DNA of 33,938 nt. Source: Candidatus Saccharimonadota bacterium (GTDB lineage Bacteria; Patescibacteriota; Saccharimonadia; Saccharimonadales; Saccharimonadaceae). Numbering within the stretch: the stretch's first letter is position 1; each line of letters starts with the position of its first letter. The position numbers were made by a program, and so were the translations under genes. Shown one piece after another: positions 15,437 to 32,012 of this stretch. The DNA is taken from positions 1-33,938 of the forward strand of contig WRFU01000008.1 of the NCBI GenBank assembly GCA_009778675.1, read 5' to 3'. The notes under the pieces are model-generated. The model was not told the origin of the DNA, did no database searches, and saw nothing but the letters and a program-made list of their open reading frames with translations.

Positions 15437-15445
15437 TGTTATAAT
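15437..15445 (+). promoter_or_regulatory. Extended -10 promoter of the nuclease gene
   Basis: TGT followed by consensus TATAAT (15440-15445), 7 nt before ATG 15453. No -35. Predicts a leaderless transcript, and excludes the longer frame from 15399. Confidence 0.6.
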
Positions 15446-15452
15446 TACGCTC

Positions 15453-15848
15453 ATGGTTAAAAAAGAGTATAACGTCATAAAACCTGTTGGCTTAAAGCCA
15501 AGGCCGGATAAATATGAGGAATCCATCGCTGAGCTTATGGCTAAGTATTTTAAGAGCGACGTAAGGTTTATCAAGCGAGCCTCTACCACCACTCCAGATG
15601 TTGTAGTCCTACGCTATAACCAGCAGTGGGAGATTAAAAATATAAGGGGTAATAGCAAACGAACAATTCAGAACAATTTGCGTACTGCTGATAACCAATC
15701 AGAAAATATTATCATCGGACTGTCTCGTACAAAGATGACAACAAAACAAGCCGAAGGCCGCATTAACGAGTTCTTGCGCACTGGTTCTGTTAAGATAAGG
15801 CGAATACTTTTGGTCACGAAAAAGCAAATAGTGCTTGTAATTAAATAA
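15453..15848 (+). CDS. PD-(D/E)xK nuclease-like protein resembling CdiA C-terminal tRNase domains
   Basis: 131 residues. The frame is open from 15399, but the -10 at 15440-15445 and the rpmE-derived sequence upstream make ATG 15453 the start. The pattern is PD-(D/E)xK-like: an acidic helix with E22/E23, then P48-D49 on the first strand, E60-I61-K62 on the second (QQWEIKN), followed by GNSKRTIQNNL and a strand-helix-strand end (ENIIIGLSRTK, KIRRILLVTKK). This arrangement, WE(I/V)K-x4-GNS...TI..NL, is what I recall from the C-terminal tRNase domain of some CdiA toxins and related stand-alone proteins; that is memory, not a search. No signal peptide or CdiA-like body is present. It could be a restriction or defence nuclease, a toxin, or a domesticated element. 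No obvious immunity gene is beside it. Confidence 0.65.
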   Translation: MVKKEYNVIKPVGLKPRPDKYEESIAELMAKYFKSDVRFIKRASTTTPDVVVLRYNQQWEIKNIRGNSKRTIQNNLRTADNQSENIIIGLSRTKMTTKQAEGRINEFLRTGSVKIRRILLVTKKQIVLVIK

Positions 15849-15995: not shown

Positions 15996-16024
15996 TTGAC
16001 TTTTTAACAATAGTGTGCTACACT
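15996..16024 (+). promoter_or_regulatory. Class I promoter of module A
   Basis: TTGACT (15996-16001), 17 bp ending TGTGC, TACACT (16019-16024). Predicted transcription start near 16031, so the leader is about 147 nt. Confidence 0.75.
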
Positions 16025-16057
16025 GAAAGTATAAGCATGTAACTTACTTATTACAGT

Positions 16058-16137
16058 ATGCGTACATGTACGCATTTTTTGCTTTTACTAACAAAAAATG
16101 CGTACATGTACGCATTTTTTGCTTTTACTAACAAAAA
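16058..16137 (+). repeat. Tandem 40-bp duplication in leader A
   Basis: 16058-16097 and 16098-16137 are identical. Each unit carries TGCGTACATGTACGCA, T6G, a 10-nt loop and CA5; the sequence after the second unit supplies the final ATGC. Copies B and C have one unit. Confidence 0.95.
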
Positions 16138-16141
16138 ATGC
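16058..16141 (+). promoter_or_regulatory. Candidate attenuator or operator array, leader A
   Basis: Each unit can form a palindromic hairpin TGCGTACATGTACGCA followed by T6 (terminator-like), or a 10-bp stem GCATTTTTTG/CAAAAAATGC that captures the T-tract. The two folds share the bases GCA and exclude each other. Alternatively the perfect palindrome is a DNA operator; here it is present twice. Confidence 0.55.
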
Positions 16142-16177: not shown

Positions 16178-16639
16178 ATGCCTAGGATAGCAAAAACCGA
16201 AGAATTGCAAAACCGCAGTGAGGACGGAGAGGGCGGGTTTATACCAGCTTTTAGGCCAGAAGGGCAGCCAGAACGTGATGTGAACAAGATAGGTGAGACG
16301 ATTTTCTATGAAACGGGTAAATATCACTCGGCTGATAAGGCTATCGAGGATGCTCGAGAACTCGGGTTTGATAATAACGCCCAAGACATAGAGTGGACAA
16401 TAAATAGTGACGCATATGCTGTCGTTGAAGCCGAGAGGGAACGCTTTAAACTGTTTCCCTACGCCGTTTTTACGAACGGTAATGTCAAGTGGGGCTACTA
16501 TGTTCCATGTGACATTACAGAGCCTATCCACGGGTTTCCTGTCGAGGAGGTTGATACTGTCACTGATAGTGCCTTAGTATCATATGAGCCTGAGACTGCA
16601 GTTTCGGCTGAACTGGCTCCTAATCCATCAGTAGACTGA
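16178..16639 (+). CDS. Hypothetical protein behind leader A
   Basis: 153 residues, acidic, no signal peptide or membrane segment. AAAGAGG lies 10 nt before ATG 16178. The first 40 residues are Glu/Gly/Pro-rich and probably disordered; the middle (about 42-125: ETGKYHSADKAIEDARELGF, YAVVEAERERFKLFPYAVF, NVKWGYYVP) looks like a small alpha/beta fold; the tail is again acidic and low in complexity. It lacks the DVG..RL motif of the proteins behind leaders B and C, so the shared part is the regulatory DNA. Lies in the island between the rpmE remnant and rpmE. Family not recognised. Ends in TGA. Confidence 0.75.
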   Translation: MPRIAKTEELQNRSEDGEGGFIPAFRPEGQPERDVNKIGETIFYETGKYHSADKAIEDARELGFDNNAQDIEWTINSDAYAVVEAERERFKLFPYAVFTNGNVKWGYYVPCDITEPIHGFPVEEVDTVTDSALVSYEPETAVSAELAPNPSVD

Positions 16640-26082: not shown

Positions 26083-26111
26083 TTGACTTTTTAACAATAG
26101 TGTGCTACACT
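26083..26111 (+). promoter_or_regulatory. Class I promoter of module B
   Basis: TTGACT (26083-26088), 17 bp ending TGTGC, TACACT (26106-26111). Transcription start predicted near 26118; leader about 107 nt. Confidence 0.75.
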
Positions 26112-26147
26112 GAAAGTATAGACATGTAAACATACATAATTACAGTA

Positions 26148-26190
26148 TGCGTACATGTACGCATTTTTTGTTTTCGTGAATAAAAAATGC
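26148..26190 (+). promoter_or_regulatory. Candidate attenuator or operator, leader B
   Basis: Palindrome TGCGTACATGTACGCA (26148-26163) followed by T6; alternative stem GCATTTTTT (26161-26169) with AAAAAATGC (26182-26190), closed by a G-T pair where A and C have G-C. Confidence 0.55.
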
Positions 26191-26224: not shown

Positions 26225-27229
26225 ATGTCTGAGATACCAAAAAATAGCAGCGAGACAGAACAAACACCGACTGATAACAAAAATAAACTACCAGACCCTG
26301 ATGATGTTGGCCAAGAGCGCTTAGACAGAGAGCTTAAGGCTCGTGGTTTACCAGAAGACGCTAGCTGGTCAGACGTTGTAGATTATGATAATCAGCCTGA
26401 TGAAGGTAAAGAGCAAGACCCAGAGCCAACGAGGCCACATTACGAAGCAACTTATAATCCCAAAATAGATAAAGAAGACTCGAGAAGTCAACTTCAAAAA
26501 GAATCTGCACGATTTGAAAAATTTACAGGTACAGCAGGCGATTATATTGATAGGTTTGCTAGTAAAAAGTCAGAGTCTAAAGACGAACAGGCCGAAGAAC
26601 TCGCTGCGCGTGAAGCAGAACGAGACCATTACTTAGATATACTAAAAAAGGCTGATTCTTCTGATCTAGAACAACTTGGTTTTAGCGATTTTTCCGAAGT
26701 TGAAAAACTCAACGGAGTAGAAGCTTATAATATATTGGGTGAATATCGCAAACTTGAGGCTGCCAAACAAGAGCCGGCTAATGTAGCCAAAGTATTAGAG
26801 CAACAAGTGGCGGATCAAGCAGCTGAAATGGATGTAAAAGTACAAGACTTAACATCACGTGCTGATGTGGAGATGGTTAGGGCGCATATTCAACAGTTGC
26901 ATGATGATGCTCTCGAAACAGCACTGAATACGGCGCCTTTTAATAATCATAATCCAAAGCGTTATGCAAAAGTATGGCGTGAACGTTATCAAATGATGCT
27001 GGATACGTTGGATCAAGTAAGTGGCGACAATGTTTTAGAGCAGCTTGATACCTTAAAAGACAAATATAGTGAGACTATGCAGGATGAGCACCGTCAATAT
27101 GAAAAGTTGAATCATGGTGTATTTGGTAGGCTGAGAGCACGATCGCATCGCAAAAAAATGACAGAAGCAGGCAGTAGATATGGTATAATAGTCCACCTGA
27201 TTGATGAAATAAACTCATCAATAACGTAG
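26225..27229 (+). CDS. Hypothetical protein with DVG..RL motif, behind leader B
   Basis: 334 residues, highly charged, no signal peptide or membrane helix. AAAGGG precedes the ATG by about 9 nt. Residues 22-55 (LPDPDDVGQERLDREL, ARGLPEDASWSDVVDYD) match residues 25-58 of the 31062 protein, and the C-terminal SRYGIIVHLIDEI resembles its GVLVHMLEE. Between these the protein is mostly helical (about 80-300), with probable coiled coil (ELAAREAERDHYLDILKKA, KVLEQQVADQAAEMDVKV), and diverges from the paralogue. Function unknown. The common head plus variable body, under a repeated regulatory module, suggests a family with many members in this genome. Confidence 0.75.
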   Translation: MSEIPKNSSETEQTPTDNKNKLPDPDDVGQERLDRELKARGLPEDASWSDVVDYDNQPDEGKEQDPEPTRPHYEATYNPKIDKEDSRSQLQKESARFEKFTGTAGDYIDRFASKKSESKDEQAEELAAREAERDHYLDILKKADSSDLEQLGFSDFSEVEKLNGVEAYNILGEYRKLEAAKQEPANVAKVLEQQVADQAAEMDVKVQDLTSRADVEMVRAHIQQLHDDALETALNTAPFNNHNPKRYAKVWRERYQMMLDTLDQVSGDNVLEQLDTLKDKYSETMQDEHRQYEKLNHGVFGRLRARSHRKKMTEAGSRYGIIVHLIDEINSSIT

Positions 27230-27691: not shown

Positions 27692-28087
27692 ATGCAATAC
27701 AAAGATAATGATTTAGACAACATAGTTGATATTACCGAAGGCACTAGCGATAAAGCGCCGGCTTATGCTAAGCAACTAGATGCGCAGCTTAAAAAAGGTG
27801 CACTAAGCTATTGTGTGTTATTGGCGTGTGAAAAACTAACTTATACCAGCGAAATTATCACCAAACTGCGCCTAAGCGAGCTTAATGTGGCCGAAGGTAC
27901 AATTTATCCTCTGTTAGCTAGGTTGCAAAAAGATGGCCTATTGCTGCACAAATGGCAAGAATCAGAACAGGGGCCGCCGCGTAAATATTACGTAATCACA
28001 GATTACGGCCGGGCGGTGCGCAGTTTGCTAGCCAGCAATGTTAAACAGCTTAATAAATCAATTAAAACGCTTGAGAAAGGAGCGTAA
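27692..28087 (+). CDS. PadR-family transcriptional regulator
   Basis: 131 residues. A 30-residue N-terminal extension is followed by the PadR winged helix: KGALSYCVLLACEKLTYTSEIITKL, then AEGTIYPLLARLQKDGLLLHKWQESEQGPPRKYYVITDYG, where the recognition helix and wing are typical. A short C-terminal helix follows. PadR proteins are dimeric repressors that usually control an adjacent membrane or transport gene; here the next gene, one base away, encodes a PspC-domain membrane protein, the usual pairing in Gram-positives. Likely autoregulated through the palindrome at its promoter. Confidence 0.9.
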   Translation: MQYKDNDLDNIVDITEGTSDKAPAYAKQLDAQLKKGALSYCVLLACEKLTYTSEIITKLRLSELNVAEGTIYPLLARLQKDGLLLHKWQESEQGPPRKYYVITDYGRAVRSLLASNVKQLNKSIKTLEKGA

Positions 28088-28088
28088 A

Positions 28089-29157
28089 ATGAACGAAGTA
28101 ACAAGAATCCACCTGGCCAGGGTAGCGTACGACATCGACGCAACAGCCCAAAAAGAGCTAGAAAAGTACATAACAGCGGTCAAAAAGAGCCTGGGCAGTG
28201 AGGCTGAGGCCATGGAAGATATCGAAATCCGAATGACGGAAATCTTGGCTGAACGGGGTGTAAATAAAGATGATGTGATCACTAGTCCAGATGTAGCTGC
28301 CATAATTGATCAATTGGGCGAGCCAAAGGACTTTTCGTCTGCCGATGCCAAGGCCGAAGCTGCCACAGGTTCGTCATCGTCGGCCAAAAAATATTACCGC
28401 GATAGCGAAAATGGCATACTGGGCGGTGTAATCGCCGGGCTGGCAGCCTATACTGGCTGGGATGTTACACTGCTGCGTATAATAGCGGTACTACTACTGA
28501 TATTTTCTACCGTTATACCGGTGTTACTAATTTACATTGTAGTGTGGATTGCCGCACCCGAGGCTAACACCGTGAGCGAAAAGCTAGCCATGCACGGCGA
28601 GCCGGTCAATATTGATTCAATCAAGCAAGCGGCCGAAAAAGTGGGTAATAAAGCCGGGGCTATGGGGGCAGGAAGTAGCGGCCAATGTAAAGCGAAACCG
28701 TGGCGCCATGAACGATGTGGCGCGGGTTATTTTAGCGGTAATCGGCGTTTTAGGTATTATAGCCTGTGCCGGTATACTGGCCGGCGTAGTAACCAGTTTC
28801 GCCTACCTATTGCCGATAGTTATTGGTATGAATATCGTGGCTTTTCCGCTGTTTGTAGTGACCTTTTCGCTAAGTTTTGCGTTCTGTTTTATGTTGGCGG
28901 TAGCTGGGATTTCGTTTTTTGCTAGGTTAATTAGTGGCAACTTTAAAAAAGCTGGTGTAAGCCTGGCAATAACTGGGGTGATGGCGATGGTGTTGTTGCT
29001 GGCGGCGATGGTTAGCGGGGCATCGTGGCTAAGTGTTGCCGGTAATAAAGGACTACGACAATTACGCGATGCGGCCGAAAGCCATATAATGGTTAACGAC
29101 AAGCGTGTGCACGTAGATTTCGCTCCATTTAGGGTGGATGTAAAAGTCGATAAATAA
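28089..29157 (+). pseudogene. PspC-domain membrane protein, frameshifted at a G5 tract
   Basis: Start ATG 28089 with GAAAGGAG upstream. The first frame gives a DUF1700-like helical head (about 1-95: VAYDIDATAQKELEKYI, EDIEIRMTEILAERG), a PspC domain (about 100-160: NGILGGVIAGLAAYTGWDVTLLRIIAV) and then, after 28664-28668 (GGGGG), non-membrane sequence rich in Arg, Cys and Tyr until the stop at 28925. The next frame, from the same place, continues as four clear membrane helices (ARVILAVIGVLGIIACAGIL ...) to 29157. Removing one G joins them as ...GAMGQEVAANVKRNRGAMNDVARVI..., a 355-residue protein. So the gene has a one-base insertion, or is a sequencing error, or is recoded. A C-terminal product could also start at ATG 28708. 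Confidence 0.8.
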
Positions 29158-30860: not shown

Positions 30861-30889
30861 CCGTTTCCAAGGTTCGTCCTTGGAAACGG
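30861..30889 (+). terminator. Hairpin after hpf
   Basis: CCGTTTCCAAGG (30861-30872) pairs perfectly with CCTTGGAAACGG (30878-30889) around TTCGT. No T-run follows. It is related to the hairpin at 15939-15963, so it belongs to the repeated module as well as ending the serS-hpf transcript. Confidence 0.55.
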
Positions 30890-30919
30890 GGACTATATGG
30901 CATAATATACCACTTAAGC

Positions 30920-30948
30920 TTGACTTTTTAATAATAGTGTGCTACACT
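30920..30948 (+). promoter_or_regulatory. Class I promoter of module C
   Basis: TTGACT (30920-30925), 17 bp ending TGTGC, TACACT (30943-30948). Predicted transcription start near 30955; leader about 107 nt. Confidence 0.75.
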
Positions 30949-30983
30949 GTAACTATAGACATGTAAACATACCCATTACAGTA

Positions 30984-31026
30984 TGCGTACATGTACGCAT
31001 TTTTTGTTTTCCTGAACAAAAAATGC
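30984..31026 (+). promoter_or_regulatory. Candidate attenuator or operator, leader C
   Basis: Palindrome TGCGTACATGTACGCA (30984-30999) then T6; alternative 10-bp stem GCATTTTTTG (30997-31006) with CAAAAAATGC (31017-31026). Confidence 0.55.
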
Positions 31027-31061
31027 CAGTAAAAATAAAAGAAAACAAAGGAAAATAGAAA

Positions 31062-32012
31062 ATGACAAAATCCAGTGAGCATCAGCCAAATCCCGAAAAC
31101 GAACAACAGCTGCAAGATGGCCCTAAAGCTGGATTACCTTCAATAGAAGATGTCGGTTTGCAACGCTTAGCAAAAGAGCTTACTGAGCGTGGTTTGCCAG
31201 AAGATGCGACTTGGATGGATATTAAGGAATATGATGAATCACACGAAACTGATGTTAACCCCGAGCAGAAAACCGAACGAGAACGCGCCGCAGAATTAGC
31301 TGATTACGTGAATCGGCATATGATAGATATGTATAAAACTGTTTCTCTAGATGAAACAGGTACTCCTGATGAGTATCGTTTAGAAGCTTTTAAAAGGATG
31401 ATGGAGTATGAGCAAAGAGCAAAAAGGGATAAAGAGTTAGCTAGAGGAGCTGGTGATATGTCGGTTCATGAACTTGAGTATCGCAAGCAGGCTTTCGATA
31501 AAGCTGAGCTGAACGCCGGTCTGTTACGGTCTGGTATCATAATAGGTAATTATGAATGGGAAGATAAGGCTAGACAGGCTAAACAGGCTAAACTTAGTAA
31601 TTTTGAGTTAGCAATGCAAACTAGCGATCTACGCCTAGAAGAGCTAGACTCGGTGGCCTATGAGAAGACCATGGGCAAGGTTATAGATGAGTTAAATGTG
31701 CTGGGCGTTGCTGAAGATCCGAATGGTGAATTGTTCAAAAAATTTGAAAATAGTATTGACAGTGCAGCGAAGGCCGAAGATACCTTAGAATTTATAAAAC
31801 TGGTAAAAGATATTGATCCTCGCCCTGATTATGACTGGCATGATGACACACCTGATAATAAATACGATTCAGACCAGCATTGTGCGCGTCTTATACAGCT
31901 GGCCTCTAATATGGGTGGGCAATCTGGCGTGCTAGTGCATATGCTTGAAGAGTCAGGCTCTATAAGCGACTGGCAAAGTATAGTAGCTGGTTACGCATCG
32001 TCTGTTTCTTGA
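31062..32012 (+). CDS. Hypothetical protein with DVG..RL motif, behind leader C
   Basis: 316 residues, acidic and mostly helical, no signal peptide or membrane helix. AAAGGA precedes the ATG by about 11 nt. Residues 25-58 (LPSIEDVGLQRLAKEL, ERGLPEDATWMDIKEYD) match the head of the 26225 protein, roughly 22 of 34 identical by eye. The body (about 70-275) contains segments such as YRLEAFKRMMEYEQRAKRDK and SNFELAMQTSDLRLEELDSV and is not alignable with the paralogue except near the end (SGVLVHMLEE). Function unknown; the conserved head may be an interaction or export tag. Ends in TGA. Confidence 0.75.
   Translation: MTKSSEHQPNPENEQQLQDGPKAGLPSIEDVGLQRLAKELTERGLPEDATWMDIKEYDESHETDVNPEQKTERERAAELADYVNRHMIDMYKTVSLDETGTPDEYRLEAFKRMMEYEQRAKRDKELARGAGDMSVHELEYRKQAFDKAELNAGLLRSGIIIGNYEWEDKARQAKQAKLSNFELAMQTSDLRLEELDSVAYEKTMGKVIDELNVLGVAEDPNGELFKKFENSIDSAAKAEDTLEFIKLVKDIDPRPDYDWHDDTPDNKYDSDQHCARLIQLASNMGGQSGVLVHMLEESGSISDWQSIVAGYASSVS

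Follow-up and report, generated by a model that had tools for sequence, protein, structure and literature searches.

The window, that is the whole stretch of 33,938 nucleotides that was analysed, is contig C8 of the 825 kb (0.83 Mb) genome of a Candidatus Saccharimonadota bacterium. Three of its genes (A, B and C) are preceded by leaders built of the same parts: a promoter, an upstream helix (AT), a palindrome (P) with an adjacent T-tract, and a second hairpin (Q) (Table 1). From about position +5, leader C reads ACATGTA-aa-CATAC, followed by the partner strand GTATG-cg-TACATGT, and the resulting helix AT covers the 5′ arm and the loop of P. A preliminary description of this DNA had noted P with its T-tract and the second stem in all three leaders, and we could locate them in C, in B and, doubled, in A. 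As had also been stated, the second stem takes the GCA of P, and these three nucleotides are the only ones contested between P and Q. The reported change of a closing G-C pair to G-T in leader B is real, and the pair can still form in RNA. Helix AT, which is transcribed before P, was absent from that description. For the tandem units of leader A, folding predicts a single long hairpin which ends just before the second T6.

Table 1. Features of the three leaders in the window and the genes behind them.
Feature	Position	Strand	Remarks
Leader A promoter	15996..16024	+	
Leader A helix AT	16035..16069	+	weaker, one mismatch
Leader A tandem 40-bp P-Q units (two)	16059..16141	+	P at 16059-16074 and 16099-16114
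Gene A	16178..16639	+	153 aa, no family match
Leader B promoter	26083..26111	+	
Leader B helix AT	26122..26158	+	
Leader B P, T6 and Q	26148..26190	+	P 26148-26163; Q 26161-26190 with one G-U pair
Gene B	26225..27229	+	334 aa, no family match
Leader C promoter	30920..30948	+	TTGACT, 17-bp spacer, TACACT; TG precedes the second hexamer
Leader C helix AT (anti-terminator-like)	30959..30994	+	30959-30972 (ACATGTA+CATAC) with 30981-30994 (GTATG+TACATGT)
Leader C palindrome P	30984..30999	+	TGCGTACATGTACGCA, 16 bp; terminator-like hairpin of 6-7 bp, CAUG loop
Leader C T6 (U-tract)	31000..31005	+	immediately 3′ of P, within the 5′ arm of Q
Leader C hairpin Q	30997..31026	+	core GCATTTTTTG 30997-31006 pairs with CAAAAAATGC 31017-31026; extends to 13 bp (30997-31009 with 31014-31026); GCA 30997-30999 common to P and Q
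Gene C Shine-Dalgarno-like AAAGGA	31047..31052	+	
Gene C	31062..32012	+	316 aa, no family match

The promoter of leader C is of a type that is also present in other members of the family, and a strong promoter type, TTGACTTTTTAAT...GTGTGCTATAAT, is common to several family genera (L032-L048) and to the promoters in the window. An inverted repeat, GTTTCCAAGGTTCGTCCTTGGAAAC, which has no T-run, is located 5′ of the promoter of leader C (30871-30896), with further copies ahead of leaders A and D and at G000:C16:15073. Just 5′ of leader A, a protein of 135 aa with a CdiA_C toxin domain (PF18451, E=2.9e-10) is encoded (15441-15848). An ORF after PadR (28038-28925) seems to be continued in another frame at 28612-29157, possibly by a frameshift in a membrane protein gene. 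PadR itself was considered as the regulator and rejected, as the palindrome is absent from its own promoter region.

Four copies of P are found in the window, where 0.02 are expected from dinucleotide shuffles. In the complete genome there are eight exact copies, distributed over five leaders (A-E), and when up to three mismatches are allowed, only one additional site is obtained, which is a sixth leader, F. Three leaders are thus in the window and three (D, E and the diverged F) on other contigs. Leader D (contig C4) precedes ftsA-ftsZ and leader E (contig C13) a run of five genes, and both consist of the same parts as A, B and C. P and T6 lie in a core of about 28 bases that is invariant in A-E, while the remainder of the leader is variable. 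The 40-bp P-Q unit is duplicated in exact tandem in A, D and E. Unit types and flanks disagree in that flanks are common to C/D while units are common to A/D and to C/E, which suggests conversion or exchange between the loci. Leader F (C13:27437) has the palindrome GCGCACATGTGCGC and the Q arms GCAGUUUUUAU/AUAAAAACUGC, and its differences from A-E are compensated. Exact P was not found in the collections of genome contigs, viral contigs, phages and plasmids that were searched. A generic Q pattern matched 105 loci over many phyla in the genome contigs, which we take to be chance matches or terminators.

Relatives were searched with a covariance model in which the pairs of AT and Q, but not those of P, were encoded. 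Among 297 genomes this model found leader F, one leader in another genus (G003) and one in genus g40 (G039). The G003 leader carries CACGCAACATGTTGCGTG, followed by UUUU and by Q UGUUUUGGUU/AACCAAAACA, and the G039 leader has TGCGTGTATACACGCA. As the model did not encode the pairs of P, the presence of palindromes in F, G003 and G039 confirms P independently. A model of P and Q, applied to 366 genomes, revealed that two g40 genomes each have multiple copies, and an explicit scan of the relatives' sequence for the architecture added G039_C1c and G052 (genus g53), the latter having been a weak model match before. In total, 16 leaders from four genera are available, six from the source genome and ten from g4, g40 and g53. 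The final model yielded no further genus among 372 genomes of the order, but the stricter filters of Infernal and the limited first look may have left leaders elsewhere undetected. The architecture scan gave no match in 1.67 Mb of shuffled sequence or in other loci of Saccharibacteria (154 kb), and three low-complexity matches in 757 kb from other bacteria. Weak model matches in G265, G143, G222, G431, G282 and G398 were discarded as ordinary terminators or chance.

In all 16 leaders at least six of the eight nucleotides after P are U; in g40 the U-tract is interrupted (UAUUUGUU). Perfect dyad symmetry of P is seen in 15 of the 16 leaders, and all 16 have a self-complementary centre of four bases (CATG, TATA, ATAT); these counts are slightly biased, as two leaders had been noticed through a palindrome scan. 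The distance between promoter and P is variable, with P at about +20-30 in the source genome and G003 and far larger distances in g40, while the relation between P and Q is fixed across genera. The g40 leaders (L218-L223) are long, mostly 200-350 nt up to the start codon, and have an additional, large conserved hairpin 3′ of Q and possibly a stem that closes around AT, P and Q; they could be a larger structured RNA.

Leaders A-E are uninformative for covariation, P being identical in all five. In an alignment of five sequences, both partners have changed in 5 of 15 pairs, a number matched by none of 500 shuffles. In a ten-sequence alignment, which leans towards the model because it was fitted to it and from which row relatedness was not removed, 7 of the 15 pairs are changed on both sides (16 cells), 98.6% of the cells are paired, and the covariation score is 0.35 versus 0.11; no shuffle reached the observed level. 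When partners in the same alignment were slid by 1-3 columns, 0 or 1 doubly changed pair remained. When 12 sequences were tabulated by hand, every P pair and the majority of the Q pairs were seen to have changed. The contested triplet (5′ end of P/3′ end of P/tail of Q) occurs as TGC/GCA/TGC, TAC/GTA/TAC, AGG/CCT/AGG and CAC/GTG/CAT, and in a fifth version, ACT/AGT/ACC, with one non-pair. Through these changes the contested nucleotides keep two partners, which directly supports P and Q as conserved pairings that exclude each other. A lack of covariation had been one part of the refutation test set in the preliminary description, and covariation in support of the mutually exclusive folds is now found in four genera.

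Folding of the P-Q stretch gives z-scores of -4.3 (C) and -2.5 (B), and that of the entire leader C a z-score of -6.1. In isolation, P with T6 has -6 kcal/mol, with three G-C pairs among six, and Q has -13.7. In the minimum free energy structure of the complete leader C, P is not present and its 5′ arm and loop are occupied by AT. Stepwise folding of the nascent RNA predicts that AT precedes the completion of P in all five leaders with exact P, and that it largely excludes P while P is being completed, with the weakest effect in A. AT is lost when the upstream part is shuffled, the fraction of shuffles with equal stability being 0.0005-0.0075. Given the divergence of the leaders from the source genome, AT is preserved modestly better than under random change (fractions 0.23, 0.15 and 0.05 among A, B and E). 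An upstream helix before P is clear in B-E, and helices overlapping the 5′ arm of P are clearly predicted in F, G003, G039_C2/C4 and G052. The helix is weak in A, weak or unclear in G039_C1b, G081_C16 and G039_C1c, and without clear excess over shuffles in several other g40 leaders. No domain for binding of a ligand or factor was found in the leader.

With moderate confidence, we interpret the leader as an RNA switch acting in cis, and most likely as an attenuator of transcription that has four segments. Segments 1 and 2 would pair first, forming AT. Pairing of segments 2 and 3 would form P, a short hairpin followed by the U-rich tract, like an intrinsic terminator or a pause signal, and pairing of segments 3 and 4 would form Q, in which the end of the 3′ arm of P and the U-tract are paired to a downstream A-rich strand. 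AT can coexist with Q, and the two would jointly take both arms of P, which would be the read-through state, while P with a free U-tract would be the stop or pause state. P would terminate or pause transcription, AT would be the regulated step, and some factor or condition would tip the balance between them. It is the position behind a strong promoter, the U-rich 3′ side of P and the predicted early masking of P by AT, best supported in the source genome (with F), G003, G039_C2/C4 and G052, which argue for attenuation of transcription. Because P would make a weak terminator, we give equal weight to plain termination and to a pause or factor-dependent stop. The element lies between promoter and gene and recurs before different genes in four genera.

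In a leader with a single unit, Q alone cannot prevent termination because its 3′ arm is made only after the U-tract has been passed; Q would remove P afterwards and lock in the combination of AT and Q. AT is our candidate for the true antiterminator. In two-unit leaders (A, D, E), Q1 would precede P2, and a predicted hairpin between P1 and P2 with 20-26 bp abuts the second T6. Since this hairpin can form before the second T6, stronger termination is predicted at the second unit.

No Rfam 15 family, be it of riboswitches, T-boxes, thermosensors or leaders, matched the window or the leaders of relatives at the gathering threshold, and a permissive scan gave only sub-threshold chance matches. 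Our best reading is an undescribed attenuator-like RNA of the hairpin-attenuator kind. To this extent the proposal of an attenuator of no recognised class holds, but the key competitor of P is AT rather than Q alone. As in attenuators, two stems share nucleotides and both are conserved, and as in intrinsic terminators a hairpin, although with a weak stem, is directly followed by a U-rich tract. A promoter-proximal leader, overlapping pairings and a terminator-like hairpin with U-tract are shared with trp-type and similar attenuators, and in those leaders where AT is clear, it would correspond to their upstream antiterminator. However, trp-type leaders encode a leader peptide, which is not conserved in the Saccharibacteria leaders, and their terminator is formed by segments 3:4 rather than 2:3; also, the Saccharibacteria leaders reuse the U-tract in the downstream hairpin and have a perfect palindrome as P. 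In BglG/LicT-SacY antitermination, the RAT hairpin is located 5′ of the terminator and overlaps it, as AT does with P, but AT lacks a conserved internal-loop pattern. Attenuators based on BIMEs or other repeats, and palindromes used by terminators as well as by DNA-binding factors (PMC2965389), likewise consist of one repeated palindromic unit before unrelated genes; they have another sequence and occur in another lineage, and the Saccharibacteria leader adds a conserved Q and triple covariation. In phase-variable attenuation of pil1 from Streptococcus gallolyticus, GCAGA repeats alter a leader peptide (PMC3894217). In both systems a premature terminator could be made stronger or weaker by the number of repeats in the leader, but in our case the hairpin unit itself is duplicated, and no variation within a population was observed.

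The palindromic loop of P is superfluous in the attenuator model, as is dyad symmetry for an RNA hairpin. The self-complementary centre may reflect a dimeric DNA-binding protein or co-evolution with the 5′ strand of AT, which largely copies the right half of P. P might then bind a dimeric repressor as an operator in DNA, either exclusively or beside a role in RNA, with the tandem sites about four helical turns apart. The symmetry of P and its eight exact copies in one genome speak for this, and a double use of palindromes, as attenuator and as factor site, has been proposed (PMC2965389). However, Q and the one-sided U-tract are conserved together with P, the promoter distance of P varies widely between genera while the P-Q relation does not, two palindrome versions (A-E versus F) exist in one genome and have changed with compensation, and regulator genes carry no extra copies of P. 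We consider the operator reading unlikely. To judge from the fixed P-Q relation, the variable promoter distance and the two versions, a pure operator is less likely still. As sole explanation the repressor operator suggested earlier is thus not favoured, while it may be a second role, given the self-complementary centre.

P was also considered as a parS site for ParB and rejected, as it differs from TGTTTCACGTGAAACA-like 16-mers and is tied to Q and promoter. Sampling of other genomes of the family gave no close form of P with the T-tract. A consensus-type parS occurs in one of 61 family genomes, namely in the source genome, with two mismatches. This site, the symmetric variant TATTTCACGTGAAATA, is found at G000:C1:35660-35675. 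The helix-turn-helix of ParB from the source genome reads KSATA, where KSRSH is typical, and the family may use another parS.

Instead, P, AT and Q could be alternating folds of a leader that does not terminate transcription but acts post-transcriptionally, on the stability, processing or translation of the mRNA. The weakness of P as a terminator and the leaders running on into an intact gene start are consistent with this, as is the predicted pairing of the U-rich arm with the Shine-Dalgarno and start region in C and E. But such masking is not predicted in A, B and D, the start codon is distant in g40, and this reading, which we regard as quite unlikely, gives no role to the U-richness after every P. 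Start-site masking was rejected as a shared function, as it is not conserved. Two further candidates were discarded: a leader peptide from the start-stops AUGUAA/AUGUAG, which are restricted to A-E and absent in F, G003 and g40, and a short ORF (MPVKIK) before the start codon, the frame of which is not conserved.

We regard it as very improbable that the unit moves or recombines as a DNA element, with inverted repeats for a recombinase and the leader position as a by-product. The tandem duplication in three leaders and the disagreement between units and flanks would fit, but the unit has one orientation, is always located between promoter and start codon, has no recombinase in sight nearby, and is absent from phage, plasmid and viral collections. 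An AU-rich thermosensor, which the preliminary description had considered and to which the AU-rich Q and the possible Shine-Dalgarno pairing in C and E would be suited, has next to no probability, as folding predictions for each leader hardly change between 15 and 45 °C and masking of the start is not conserved. By these predictions the leaders do not resemble fourU or ROSE thermosensors, in which a stem that melts in the physiological range covers the start region.

Most of the leader-associated genes have no family match, the exceptions being a PGDYG protein (E1), a protein with P-loop and Csx3 (F) and a gene run containing SPFH (G081_C16). The gene behind leader F (L185:1586-2992 on G000:C13) codes for 468 aa, in which an N-terminal P-loop is combined with a C-terminal Csx3 domain (CRISPR ancillary; PF09620, E=2.6e-5, above the Pfam cut-off). 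Genes B and C have about 75 N-terminal residues in common (41% identity), the N-terminal regions of D and E3 are partly alike, and some g40 genes are homologous to one another and to the G052 gene. Homologues of gene C were not found in relatives. Those of the PGDYG gene have plain leaders without the P-Q RNA, as far as readable, and thus the RNA does not travel with this gene. Our best reading is that the leaders control several mostly lineage-specific genes.

A more far-reaching reading, which we consider unlikely, is that of a new Saccharibacteria RNA class, a three-helix switch ahead of several lineage-specific genes with a genus-specific palindrome that a co-evolving factor reads (perhaps on both DNA and RNA), where the number of 40-bp units would be a heritable on/off setting. 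If true, a leader that is mostly open would become strongly terminated upon tandem duplication of the unit.

Gene regulation in the ultrasmall, host-attached Saccharibacteria is almost unknown, and a 2024 perspective called the mechanisms that govern their differentiation completely unknown (PMC11665869). The leader is a concrete and testable cis-regulatory element. With six loci in one 0.83-Mb genome and others in three further genera, this covarying RNA points to a candidate regulon, most genes of which are unnamed, and it could supply parts for control of expression in Saccharibacteria.
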